The notes beneath the pieces were generated by a model, which saw nothing but the letters and a program-made list of their open reading frames with translations, had not been told where the DNA came from and ran no database searches. A DNA stretch of 64,000 nt from NCBI RefSeq assembly GCF_000211855.2, contig NC_015638.1, positions 1,054,001 to 1,118,000 of the forward strand. Reading direction: 5' to 3'. Every line of letters begins with the position of its first letter. Position 1 is the stretch's first letter. The translations under genes were made by a program, and so were the position numbers. This document shows positions 52,813 to 62,753 of the stretch, piece by piece. Origin of the DNA: Lacinutrix sp. 5H-3-7-4. GTDB lineage: Bacteria; Bacteroidota; Bacteroidia; Flavobacteriales; Flavobacteriaceae.

Positions 52813-53421
52813 ATGGCTTTCGAATTACCGAAATTAAAATATGCATACGACGCATTAGAACCAAATATTGATGCGCGTACAATGGAAATACATCATACTA
52901 AACACCACAATGGTTATACAACAAAATTAAATAACGCTATTGAGGGTACAGAGTTAGAAGGAAAAACTATAGAGAATATTCTTTTAAACTTGGACATGGA
53001 AAACAAAGCTGTTAGAAATAATGGTGGTGGTTTTTATAATCACTCTTTATTTTGGGATGTAATGAATCCTGAAGATAAAGGACGTTTATCTGGCGAATTA
53101 AAAGATGCTATTGAAGCAGAGTTTGAATCTGTAGATGCTTTTAAAGATGCTTTTAGTAAAGCTGCAGCAACACAGTTTGGTTCTGGTTGGGCTTGGTTGT
53201 GCGTGCACAAAGGAGGAAAAGTAGAAGTTTGTTCTACACCAAACCAAGATAACCCATTAATGCCTGGCGTAACTTGTGGAGGAACACCAATTTTAGGTTT
53301 AGATGTTTGGGAACATGCCTACTATTTAAATTACCAAAACAGAAGACCAGATTATATTGATGCTTTTTTTAAAGTAATTAACTGGAACGAAGTTGAAAGA
53401 CGCTACGCAGAAGCTAAATAA
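52813..53421 (+). CDS. sodA: Superoxide dismutase (Mn/Fe family)
   Basis: A 202-residue cytoplasmic superoxide dismutase. Metal ligands are His27 (MEIHHTKHH), His77 (NHSLFW), Asp164 and His168 ([10 protein letters not shown]). The [11 protein letters not shown] segment and the Gln in [11 protein letters not shown] match the Mn-type pattern rather than Fe-type, so Mn or cambialistic use is likely. A near-consensus TAAATTTA box lies about 38 nt upstream. A strong terminator follows at 53439. It is divergent from the AddA-like gene and converges with purF across the region holding the two small-RNA-like elements. Confidence 0.95.
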
Positions 53422-53438
53422 TTTATTTCAACAAAATC

Positions 53439-53477
53439 AAAAAAAGCAGATTCTAATAATTAGAATCTGCTTTTTTT
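53439..53477 (+). terminator. Rho-independent terminator after sodA
   Basis: A 10-bp perfect stem gcagattcta / tagaatctgc with loop ataat (53446-53470), A run before and seven T after. It can also stop transcripts coming from the minus strand. Confidence 0.9.
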
Positions 53478-53511
53478 ATACTTATAATTCTCTTTTATAC
53501 TCAGTTTATAA

Positions 53512-53586
53512 AATAAAAAAGCCGGACGAGAGTCCAGCTTTTTTGCCCCAAATCTACCATGAACTTAACCTACTTATGTTATGGTA
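53512..53586 (-). ncRNA. Small-RNA-like element, copy 1 of 2
   Basis: A 75-bp element repeated at 53749-53823 with one base changed. Minus-strand RNA reads: 5' hairpin (UACCAU ... AUGGUA, inner AAC/GUU and UAA/UUA, loop GUAGG), linker GAUUUGGGGCAAAAAA, then the terminator stem GCUGGAC / GUCCGGC with loop UCUC and a U run. In this copy the terminator has a U-G pair at the position that is U-A in copy 2; the plus-strand RNA would have a C-A mismatch, so the minus strand is the sense strand. A TATATTTG box lies 4 nt upstream. Possibly a member of the Flavo-1 motif; not verified. Confidence 0.7.
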
Positions 53587-53748
53587 AGCTCAAATATAAC
53601 GAGAACAAATTTGATTTATTGTTTTTTTTAGATAAATGGTAAAAATATCTGATAAAGTGCATTTTATCGATGCTACTGAATGTATTAATTTTCAATTAGT
53701 TAAAGTGTTGCGTATATACTATCACTTATAAAAAATTAACTATAAAGC
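53587..53748. other. Spacer between the two small-RNA elements
   Basis: A 162-bp AT-rich spacer with no gene. It begins with the predicted -7 box for copy 1. The rest shows no reading frame with a plausible start and no further hairpin I would report. With the flanking elements it makes up most of the 485-bp gene-free region between sodA and purF. Confidence 0.6.
53591..53598 (-). promoter_or_regulatory. Predicted -7 box for small-RNA element copy 1
   Basis: TATATTTG (full TAnnTTTG match), exactly 4 nt before the first base of the element on the minus strand. No TTG at -33. Confidence 0.55.
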
Positions 53749-53823
53749 AATAAAAAAGCTGGACGAGAGTCCAGCTTTTTTGCCCCAAATCTACCATGAA
53801 CTTAACCTACTTATGTTATGGTA
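53749..53823 (-). ncRNA. Small-RNA-like element, copy 2 of 2
   Basis: Identical to copy 1 over 75 bp except t53760 (c53523 in copy 1). The terminator stem here is a perfect 7 bp (GCUGGAC / GUCCAGC) followed by a U run. The predicted promoter is better than that of copy 1: TTG, 18-nt spacer, TACATTTA, then 4 nt to the element. It lies 83 nt after the purF stop on the same strand, so it might alternatively act as a purF 3' end, but the promoter and duplicate argue for separate transcription. Confidence 0.72.
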
Positions 53824-53827
53824 TATT

Positions 53828-53856
53828 TAAATGTATGGCTATTTTAGATTATGCAA
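53828..53856 (-). promoter_or_regulatory. Predicted promoter for small-RNA element copy 2
   Basis: On the minus strand TTG (53854-53856), an 18-nt spacer and TACATTTA (53828-53835; TAnnTTTG with the last base A), ending 4 nt before the element, the same distance as in copy 1. Confidence 0.6.
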
Positions 53857-53906
53857 AAATGTTTTAGATTAAAATCATTATTCATGGTTTAAGTGATTAA
53901 CATTGG

Positions 53907-55805
53907 TTAATATGCACGCTCTTTATTTCCTTCAAAAAAGTTAATAAATGCTCGGTTTACAACTCTATTTCCTCCAACGGTTGGATAATTTCCTGTAAAG
54001 TACCAATCGCCTAAATTTTTAGGACAAGCTTTATGTAAATTTTCTACTGGTTGGAATATTATTTCTACTTCTGCATTTACAGTTTCATCACTTAACAATT
54101 GTGAGATTTTAGCCGAAATTTCTTCGGTTGTAAATTGATCGTAAATTTCATTTACAAAGTTCTTTACATCTTTATCTTCTAAATGTTCTTGAGCTTTACA
54201 TTTATGGTATACAGTTTCTACTAAATCATATTTTCCCGCTTCTTTTAACAATTCTAAAGCAGCATTAAAAGCTACTAATGTTTCTAAATTTGCCATATCA
54301 ATACCATAGCAATCAGGAAAACGAATTTGTGGAGCAGATGATACAACTACTATTTTTTTAGGATGTAGCCTATCCATCATTTTAATAATACTCTTTTTTA
54401 GTGTTGTGCCACGAACAATACTATCGTCAATAATTACTAAATTATCTGTAGGTTTAATTACACCGTATGTAACATCATAAACGTGAGCAACCAAATCATC
54501 TCGGCTACTATCTTCAGTAATAAACGTTCTTAATTTTACGTCTTTTATTGCTATTTTTTCTATACGAGGTCTTTCTTCTAAAATATCTATAACCTGTTGT
54601 TTGCTTAATTTACCGTCACCATCTAAAATAGCTTGAGTTTTACGTTCATTTAAATGCTCTTCTACAGTTTCTATCATACCATAAAAAGAGGTTTCGGCTG
54701 TATTTGGAATGTAAGAAAAAACAGAGTTTGCTGTATCGTTATTAATAGCTTTTAAAACTTTTGGCATTAAAAGTCTACCTAACATTTTACGTTCTTGATA
54801 AATTTCAGCATCACTACCTCTAGAAAAATAAATACGTTCAAACGAGCATGCTTTACGTTCTAAAGGCTCTAGAATTTCTTCAATAGATACTTCTCCAGAT
54901 TTTTTAGTAATAATAGCGTGACCTGGATCTAACTCTTTAACATCGTTAAAATCTACATTAAAAACAGTTTGTATCACTGGTCTTTCTGATGCTACAACAA
55001 CGACTTCATCATCTTTATAATAATATGCTGGACGAATTCCTGCCGGATCTCTTAATACAAAAGAATCTCCATGACCAAGCAATCCTGCCATTGCATAACC
55101 ACCATCCCAATTTTTAGCAGCTCTACGTAATATTTTTGCTACGTTTAAACGCTCTGCTATTAATGGTGAGCATTCATTTTTTTTATATCCTTCTTTTTTT
55201 AATTTTTTGTAAATTTTACTAACAGCATCATCAAGAAAATGTCCAATTTTCTCCATTATAGTAATGGTGTCTGTATATTCTTTTGGGTGTTGACCAAGCT
55301 CTACTAGATTAGCAAATAATTCTTTAACATTAGTCATATTAAAGTTACCTGCTAAAATTAGGTTTCTATGCTGCCAATTATTTTGGCGTAAAAAAGGATG
55401 TACACTTTCTACACTATTTTTACCAAATGTACCATAACGCACATGACCTAAAAGTACTTCTCCTATATATGGTATTTTACTTTTTTGCAGTGCTACACTT
55501 TCATTATACTCTGGATGTGCAACAAGTTCATTATTTATACGCTCATTAATTTGGGCAAAAATATCTTGAATAGGTTGCTGTTGTATAGATCTAACGCGAC
55601 TTATATAACGTTCTCCTGGTTTAGTGTCTAATTTTATACTAGCAAATCCTGCACCATCCTGACCTCGATTATGCTGCTTTTCCATCATTAAATACATTTT
55701 ATTTACTCCGTAAAATGCACTTCCATATTTTTCTTTATAGAATTCTAATGGTTTTAAAAGTCTAATATGTGCAATACCGCACTCGTGTTTTAAAGCATCA
55801 CTCAT
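53907..55805 (-). CDS. PurF-type amidophosphoribosyltransferase, long form
   Basis: A 632-residue class II glutamine amidotransferase fused to a PRTase domain, the arrangement of PurF, which makes phosphoribosylamine in purine synthesis. The nucleophile Cys9 follows eight residues (MSDALKHE) that would have to be removed. The N-terminal domain has NRGQDGAGFASI and GHVRYGTFGKNS; the PRPP motif is VIIDDSIVRGTTLKKS. It is over 100 residues longer than classical PurF (about 470-510), with extra sequence mostly after the PRTase core. It may be a second paralogue, so I leave the symbol empty. Its leader is CA-rich and preceded by two palindromes. Confidence 0.85.
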   Translation of the reverse strand: MSDALKHECGIAHIRLLKPLEFYKEKYGSAFYGVNKMYLMMEKQHNRGQDGAGFASIKLDTKPGERYISRVRSIQQQPIQDIFAQINERINNELVAHPEYNESVALQKSKIPYIGEVLLGHVRYGTFGKNSVESVHPFLRQNNWQHRNLILAGNFNMTNVKELFANLVELGQHPKEYTDTITIMEKIGHFLDDAVSKIYKKLKKEGYKKNECSPLIAERLNVAKILRRAAKNWDGGYAMAGLLGHGDSFVLRDPAGIRPAYYYKDDEVVVVASERPVIQTVFNVDFNDVKELDPGHAIITKKSGEVSIEEILEPLERKACSFERIYFSRGSDAEIYQERKMLGRLLMPKVLKAINNDTANSVFSYIPNTAETSFYGMIETVEEHLNERKTQAILDGDGKLSKQQVIDILEERPRIEKIAIKDVKLRTFITEDSSRDDLVAHVYDVTYGVIKPTDNLVIIDDSIVRGTTLKKSIIKMMDRLHPKKIVVVSSAPQIRFPDCYGIDMANLETLVAFNAALELLKEAGKYDLVETVYHKCKAQEHLEDKDVKNFVNEIYDQFTTEEISAKISQLLSDETVNAEVEIIFQPVENLHKACPKNLGDWYFTGNYPTVGGNRVVNRAFINFFEGNKERAY

Positions 55806-62657: not shown

Positions 62658-62733
62658 GGGCGTTACCTAAAGGTCGCGCTATTCACTATATCTTTTGTAA
62701 AACAAAAGGATGCCGTTACTATCGCTAACGCAA
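62658..62733. repeat. Palindromic dispersed-repeat-like element
   Basis: A 76-bp unit with inverted ends, GGGCGTTA at 62658-62665 and TAACGC at 62726-62731, an inner hairpin (atcttttgt / acaaaaggat, 62690-62711) and GGATGCCGTTACTATCGCTAACGC at its 3' part. I recall very similar units, ending in a form of GGATGCCG...CCTAACGC, scattered in many flavobacterial genomes (REP/MITE-like). Only one copy is in this window. It lies within the pyk 3' untranslated region, before the terminator. Confidence 0.7.
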
Positions 62734-62753
62734 ACTAAGGCAAGTAATAAACT

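Follow-up and report, generated by a model that had tools for sequence, protein, structure and literature searches.

Tandem genes for a predicted antisense small RNA between sodA and purF of Lacinutrix, with candidate mRNA targets in the Flavobacteriaceae

The window analyzed here, a stretch of 64,000 nt from Lacinutrix sp. 5H-3-7-4, contains two almost identical elements arranged in tandem between two genes that, following the preliminary description, we take to be sodA and purF. This locus raises the question of whether the elements are local signals that serve their neighbors or genes for an RNA that acts elsewhere and, if the latter, on which targets. As argued below, we suggest that each copy is very probably a gene for the same trans-acting antisense repressor sRNA of ~72 nt that is co-regulated with its targets. 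The features of the locus are the following:

52813..53421, plus strand: sodA, convergent neighbor (context)
53515..53586, minus strand: sRNA copy 1, predicted 5' end at ~53586 and U-run end at ~53515, in the 75-nt repeat unit 53512-53586
53543..53584, minus strand: predicted target-pairing segment of copy 1, sRNA nt 3-44 (hairpin, GUAGG loop, GAUUUGGGGC linker), nearly invariant in alignment A1
53515..53544, minus strand: predicted intrinsic terminator of copy 1, from the fold, with a U run and a stem varying among relatives with two-sided changes
53752..53823, minus strand: sRNA copy 2, predicted 5' end at ~53823, in the 75-nt repeat unit 53749-53823
53780..53821, minus strand: predicted target-pairing segment of copy 2, sRNA nt 3-44, nearly invariant in A1
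53752..53781, minus strand: predicted intrinsic terminator of copy 2, from the fold and two-sided changes in the alignment
53907..55805, minus strand: purF, upstream same-strand neighbor (context, not part of the RNA)

Sequence comparison of 53512-53586 with 53749-53823 bears out the 75-nt duplication with a single differing base that had been described, and the similarity extends to 87 nt at 93%. On the minus strand, both copies fold as had been proposed, i.e. into a 5' hairpin closed by a GUAGG loop, then a single-stranded stretch that contains GGGG, and finally a U-run terminator (MFE -24.8 and -25.5 kcal/mol; 0/200 shuffles equally stable for each copy). The proposed preference for the minus strand stands on the homologues and fails on the energy of copy 2, for which the plus-strand MFE of -26.1 is as good as that of the minus strand (that of copy 1, -21.4, is not). 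Because folding energy alone does not favor the minus strand for copy 2, the strand call rests on the homologues: Read on the minus strand, the 5' hairpins of 46 aligned copies contain 23 G-U cells and no A-C cell, together with three other mismatches and six gaps, and over all predicted pairs there are 49 G-U versus 13 A-C cells, all 13 of which lie within the loosely aligned terminator. In alignment A1, the 5' ~43 nt of the sRNA are nearly invariant and the terminator stem is variable, and two-sided changes are found at six of the 21 predicted pairs. A peptide encoded within the sRNA was considered and rejected, as the short internal ATG frame shifts in variants carrying an extra A. Directly after sodA, at 53439-53477 of the window, a perfect 19-bp inverted repeat with A and T runs resembles a two-way terminator that parts sodA from the sRNA array.

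The upstream regions of the two copies contain the following predicted signals:

53591..53598, minus strand: -7 box of copy 1, TATATTTG, exactly 4 nt upstream of the copy (column profile of 129 upstreams)
53631..53636, minus strand: proximal regulator-like repeat TTnnnC of copy 1 (spacing statistics)
53651..53656, minus strand: distal repeat of copy 1, 20 bp further upstream (spacing statistics)
53828..53835, minus strand: -7 box of copy 2, TACATTTA, exactly 4 nt upstream of the copy (column profile of 129 upstreams)
53867..53872, minus strand: proximal regulator-like repeat TTnnnC of copy 2
53887..53892, minus strand: distal repeat of copy 2, 20 bp further upstream

The two boxes confirm the TAnnTTTR element that had been reported 4 nt upstream of each copy, and in the first set of relatives TAnnTT is present at most 22 nt from the sRNA 5' end in 129/129 distinct upstreams. 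Copy 2 does have the TTG noted 18 nt ahead of its box, but this position is not conserved across these 129 upstreams. Conservation upstream is instead seen in two direct repeats, which are absent from the preliminary description: TTnnnC words are spaced by 20 in 240 of 383 sRNA upstreams versus 1.0 in mononucleotide shuffles, where the 383 upstreams comprise the first set plus further relatives, are not independent, and were seen before the word was chosen. A spacing of 21 occurs in 25 of the 383 (shuffles ~1). Lesser peaks are seen at spacings of 8 (40 upstreams) and 28 (30 upstreams). In several genomes of the many-species genus g133 of our sample, which is probably Flavobacterium, the repeats read GCATTTCATC...CCGTTCATC. 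The binding sites of LytTR regulators are imperfect direct repeats that measure 8-13 bp and lie ~12 bp apart, with CCGTTCGTC as the AlgR core (PMC4064291); a minority of sites have a spacing of 11 or 13 bp instead (PMC6193735). The period of 20 in the sRNA upstreams corresponds to an 11-bp spacer only if 9-mers are taken, compared to the 12 (in a minority 11 or 13) bp of LytTR sites, and no LytTR-type gene was recognized by eye among the ORF beginnings at eight loci. A LytTR-type regulator possibly acts on the direct repeats, which is a lead rather than proof.

Is this RNA known? In a scan of the window with Rfam 15, no family reached its gathering score on the element, and in a permissive scan of 53420-53910 all matches were far below their gathering scores, with Flavo-1 absent from the 40 matches at E <=10. 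Rfam has just one match in the window, a Flavo-1 RNA on the minus strand at 62668-62740 (53.9 bits). With membership defined as a covariance-model match of at least 42 bits, the Flavo-1 model (RF01705) served as positive control and found 23 dispersed above-cut-off copies in the Lacinutrix genome. Given that the same model leaves the element unmatched, the suggested identity with Flavo-1 is rejected, and the alternative raised alongside it, that the element is undescribed, agrees with the lack of a match to any Rfam family. A text search found the core sequence in no open-licence PMC paper, and this literature contained nothing linking an sRNA to the purF-sodA locus or to the small protein downstream of scoB that is described below. 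Judged by its sequences, the sRNA family is real, and it is apparently undescribed as far as Rfam and open-licence PMC searches reach.

Using BLASTN, the element was found in 30 of 60 genomes, Lacinutrix included, and all 30 belong to the Flavobacteriaceae. A covariance model built from alignment A1 (46 distinct sequences of 58 copies, with row L033:1010-1082 shortened at the 5' end) detected the sRNA at E <=0.001 in 213 of 249 sampled Flavobacteriaceae genomes, a count that includes two weak positives (G206 and G232, E 7e-5 and 7e-4) and some genomes that supplied model sequences. Among 296 genomes across the phylum, matches at E <1e-10 are restricted to the Flavobacteriaceae and all others have E >=5e-4. 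Copies 1 and 2, themselves among the model sequences, match at G000:C1:1107515-1107586 (E 4.4e-19) and G000:C1:1107752-1107823 (E 3.2e-19), and positive genomes have 1-7 matches each. The duplication with kept structure had been taken as a sign of function, and the conservation in 213/249 genomes well beyond the original strain is in line with this idea. Among the matches listed in a pattern scan, carriers include Zobellia, Maribacter, Winogradskyella, Aquimarina, Salegentibacter and others; of the 118 loci listed, 96 have purF on the same strand at a distance of up to 1 kb and 91 have sodA on the opposite strand at up to 3 kb, counting also the 38 loci that are no more than 900 nt from a stretch edge and in which a neighbor is possibly cut off. 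The number of exact-core copies at these 118 loci is one in 46, two in 33, three in 21, four in 12, five in 5 and six in 1. Where purF and sodA are separated, one copy is found beside sodA (L093, L094) and another beside purF (L022, L023), and in some genomes orphan copies occur at other places (L090, L092, L095, L096).

Three arrays contain one variant copy with a GGGACGAAAAGGG linker (L025:770-841 in G030, L030:903-974 in G023 and L031:1696-1767 in G013). These variants share a different upstream sequence, TTTTATTTCCCACAATACCAGTA, in place of the direct repeats, which suggests that they may be under separate control. In G027, a divergent sRNA-like copy (L087, ~1898-1923) has the top of the hairpin replaced and retains the stem base and a GATTTGGGGCAAA linker.

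Weak BLASTN matches in several genomes pointed to a region flanked by scoB and, in convergent orientation, a peptide ABC-transporter gene, as we presume these genes to be from their protein sequences. In this region, between one and three segments of the scoB strand complement the sRNA core, also in Lacinutrix. The best local complementarity score downstream of scoB is at least 31 in 32 of 55 sRNA-positive genomes versus 0 of 9 sRNA-lacking genomes, as counted by eye from the table; in one of the 32 (G033) the site is probably inside the neighboring gene, and among the nine, G043 is outside the family and was judged by BLASTN only and G152 and G184 have weak model matches (E 0.006 and 0.008). 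As controls at this locus, the reversed query scored at least 31 in 1/64 genomes and the other strand in 0/64, with 1.5-2.5 kb searched per genome and lengths unequal. A strong site is missing at this locus in 23 of the 55 sRNA-positive genomes, including 7/7 tested of g133.

The sites precede or overlap a conserved, unannotated small ORF of 29-57, mostly 33-44, codons (35 genomes), which in Lacinutrix reads MNSDLFLLTQFKKVKQTFKFIGSLVYLTKKVFML and is located at about G000:C1:1269835, i.e. outside the window. Given that pN is lower than pS in 15/15 and 45/45 pairs, we conclude that the small ORF is protein-coding. Searches of Pfam and NCBIfam placed five examples of the protein in no family and gave a single Pfam match below threshold (E 0.12). 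A profile of the protein (E <1e-3) matched 11 of 26 sRNA-positive genomes tested, seven of the 11 being outside the profile, compared to 0/13 sRNA-negative genomes of the family and 0/3 genomes outside the family; the 15/26 sRNA-positive genomes in which the protein went undetected were partly chosen for lacking it and include 7/7 of g133. Alignment A2 contains 34 of the 35 proteins (G116 was left out, G168 and G061 were trimmed, and G168 begins one residue before a later Met). Six examples have a hydrophobic moment of 0.33-0.62 and a net charge of -1 to +6, and the protein is predicted to be amphipathic, mostly cationic and no clear transmembrane toxin. In G017 (L082) and G131 (L134) the ORF is seemingly frameshifted or truncated and the complementary sites are retained. 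A stretch of L083 that had been considered as a terminator was rejected, as its translation reveals the conserved ORF.

Up to two sites lie in the leader of this ORF, and another extends over the AUG or the initial dozen codons. In the N-L-P/S motif inside the site, the Leu codon is CTA in 18/20 and CTG in 2/20 cases, compared to 10.1% CTA among 29,771 Leu codons, and this preference is a sign of constraint at the RNA level. In 29 of 35 start regions of small-protein genes, the predicted sRNA-leader duplex has an energy of at most -33 kcal/mol, and in 31 of 35 none of 100 shuffles was as low. By comparison, 930 natural start regions have a mean of -20.1 kcal/mol, with the lowest value (-69.5) being the antisense of an sRNA copy and the next -33.5. 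Weaker duplexes of -20.7 to -29.5 are found in six genomes (G116, G173, G013, G067, G061 and G227), two of which, G013 and G061, have the small protein and pair at background level with the Lacinutrix-type sRNA and at -25.2 and -28.6 with the Zobellia-type sRNA. In Lacinutrix itself, sRNA nt 3-41 are predicted to pair at -38.6 kcal/mol and nt 8-40 to pair across the AUG at -32.7, and the leader alone folds weakly (-10.6 kcal/mol).

BLASTN with the g133 sRNA pointed to a second set of start regions, those of a CAP-domain protein and of proteins of 120 and 70 aa. The CAP proteins, which have a lipoprotein-like start, match PF00188 (E 3.5e-11 to 9.7e-14 in three), and a protein search gave 28 start regions from 23 of 29 genomes. 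Thirteen of the 17 g133 CAP start regions are predicted to pair with the sRNA at -36.8 to -52.7 kcal/mol, most as a complement of 40-odd nt ending at the AUG, and these 13 align at scores of at least 31 versus at most 22 for the reversed control. Exceptions within g133 are G475, with weak pairing (-27.2), and G491, G338 and the second gene of G557, in which no CAP site was found; in G365 and G561 the protein search gave no CAP match. The 11 CAP regions outside g133 have weaker, shorter sites, the best (-32.5) being that of the second CAP gene of Lacinutrix; those of G169, G036 and G063 contain CCAAATCTAAA..ACCT close to an AUG (-25.0 to -28.8 kcal/mol), and the remaining ones are near background, with -17.8 for the CAP gene of the sRNA-negative G369. 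Among seven non-sRNA BLAST matches in g133 at E <0.05, terminator self-matches excluded, five are antisense at an AUG and two (G349, G557) are inside long ORFs. The proteins of 120 and 70 aa (L334:1642-2004 and L335:1374-1586, both on the minus strand) have start regions complementary to the sRNA, and neither has a Pfam match above cut-off.

Net binding, with the cost of unfolding included, is -27.3 for the small-protein gene and -20.8 for the own CAP gene, compared to a mean of -6.0 and a minimum of -15.2 for 59 random pieces of the window (82 nt for CAP and 158 nt for the others). With two mismatches allowed, the pattern CCCCAAATCTACCAT has 10 matches in the Lacinutrix genome versus 11 for the control, the 10 including the two sRNA copies and one small-protein leader; as these matches do not exceed the control, short seeds alone cannot list the targets. 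Similarly, the gapped pattern CCCCA..ATCTA..ACCTA has 10 non-sRNA places in 35 genomes versus 10 for the backwards control, i.e. no excess, and five of the 10 are predicted targets (G146, G063, G417, and G529 twice). A BLAST match in gapA of Lacinutrix, 16 nt inside the gene, was taken as chance. In total, the RNA has a predicted promoter and terminator of its own, which are kept across the family as expected for the separately promoted elements originally proposed, and a conserved predicted complementarity to distant mRNAs beyond chance. The GUAGG loop and the GGGG linker, which had been put forward as the contact sites of a regulatory RNA, both complement conserved mRNA start regions. By these sequence properties, the kind of RNA predicted is a trans-acting antisense sRNA with an unusual architecture.

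Several other explanations have to be weighed against this reading. The conserved place between purF and sodA could indicate a local element, i.e. a terminator or attenuator for either gene or a selfish repeat; given that each copy has its own predicted promoter, that orphan copies occur away from both genes, that conserved antisense targets are found elsewhere and that there are just 1-7 matches per genome, we regard this explanation as hardly credible. The nearly invariant hairpin could likewise point to an RNA that binds a protein. We consider this very improbable, because the targets complement nearly the whole core, which by itself explains the invariance, and the top of the hairpin is altered in G027 (L087) and in g133 copies. 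If pairing does occur, the locus downstream of scoB might be a sponge that titrates the sRNA, with an incidental ORF, and the presence of as many as three sites in tandem on a single short predicted transcript, which has a promoter-like region of its own, would fit this idea. The odds appear low, given that the ORF is under purifying selection, that the sites run on into its codons, that the profile recovers the protein in seven genomes outside the profile, and that the CAP targets carry one site at the AUG.

Alternatively, the sRNA could activate its targets by opening the leader or stabilizing the mRNA instead of repressing them. Several sites within one leader are compatible with activation, and deletion of another sRNA, Rfp18, in Flavobacterium psychrophilum lowered two target mRNAs (PMC9723704). 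The sites discussed here overlap the AUG and early codons, and as the Lacinutrix leader is weakly structured when alone, there is little for the sRNA to open; accordingly, we find activation rather doubtful. Finally, the small protein is mostly basic and has an amphipathic segment, its leader and AUG are covered by several predicted pairing sites, and there are often several sRNA genes. These features would suit a module similar to type I toxin-antitoxin systems, in which the protein is toxic, the array is a trans-encoded antitoxin and the CAP targets came later. Such a module is unlikely on present evidence: the sRNA occurs in genomes with no detected protein (7/7 of g133), so that the two do not consistently co-occur, there is a second target with a lipoprotein-like start, and the small protein is no clear transmembrane toxin.

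Returning to antisense repression, many of the target promoters carry a signal similar to that of the sRNA genes. Of 35 small-protein genes, 25 have two upstream TTnnnC words spaced by 19-21 before a loosely defined -7-like box, a raw count with no chance rate attached, and in 13 of those 25 the pair is at the same distance of 27-28 nt. By a strict test, 20-spaced pairs are found upstream of 10 of 28 CAP genes, also a raw count with no chance rate, and near-variants are visible in others. In the sRNA genes, the pair is ~37-38 nt from the -7 box, i.e. ~10 bp farther than in the target promoters, an offset of one helical turn, and automatic PSSM pairing of the repeats in the target promoters was noisy. 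One regulator common to the sRNA genes and the targets is likely; the position of the repeats, ~10 bp nearer to the -7 box in the target promoters, speaks against taking it as certain. In the mechanism that we suggest, this regulator, possibly of the LytTR type, would drive the sRNA genes as well as the targets. Pairing would begin at the loop and linker and then open the hairpin, and the sRNA would cover the start codon of the target and stop translation. Since the same regulator is inferred to drive both, the sRNA would act as a brake inside its own regulon in an incoherent feed-forward loop, and the tandem gene copies would set the strength of this brake. As a wider and more tentative model, we entertain a signaling regulon throughout the family, activated via LytTR-like repeats, in which a single regulator induces secreted CAP proteins and a membrane-active mini-protein along with 1-6 antisense sRNA genes, whose products mask the start codons of these targets at up to three sites; changes in the copy number of the array would adjust the circuit, and the mini-protein might be toxic to its own cell if left unrestrained.

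To our knowledge, few sRNAs of Bacteroidota have known targets. The sRNA described here is present in most sampled Flavobacteriaceae, is outside Rfam and has two conserved predicted targets, one of which is a protein family absent from Pfam and NCBIfam. These bacteria hardly use Shine-Dalgarno pairing for initiation, and the sRNA thus offers a case of predicted antisense control where this mode of initiation is largely missing. Moreover, the locus is an example of tandem amplification of an sRNA gene, from one to six copies, at a fixed place.

Parallels to known systems can be drawn at the level of promoters, pairing and gene organization. As in the control of RNAIII by the LytTR regulator AgrA, imperfect direct repeats are found upstream of the putative regulatory RNA; the repeat period here is 20, corresponding to an 11-bp spacer if 9-mers are taken, in contrast to the usual 12-bp spacer (PMC4227749, PMC6193735, PMC4064291). 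Rfp18 of F. psychrophilum (PMC9723704) also belongs to the conserved flavobacterial sRNAs predicted to pair with mRNAs, and it has an experimental effect on targets: its third stem-loop pairs with metalloprotease mRNAs and it is able to change target mRNA levels; judged by this description, the RNA studied here, with its two predicted stem-loops and other predicted targets, would differ from it. Flavo-1 (RF01705) is likewise a small RNA of this bacterium, with dispersed copies and a model that does not match the element, in contrast to the tandem arrangement at purF-sodA. IstR-1 is the trans-encoded type I antitoxin for TisB, and here too an sRNA is predicted to act against the mRNA of a small amphipathic protein; unlike IstR-1, this sRNA has a second, CAP-domain target and is found in genomes that lack a detectable small protein, the toxicity of which is hypothetical. 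Qrr, OmrA/B and LhrC are each encoded by redundant, near-identical sRNA genes with their own promoters and terminators, and they use a shared core to pair with leaders and start codons. The predicted sRNA resembles them in all these respects; unlike them, it matches strongly only within one family among the genomes searched and has no Rfam match, its pairing core of ~40 nt covers a hairpin as well as a linker, it has up to three sites in one leader, and its targets carry promoter repeats like its own.
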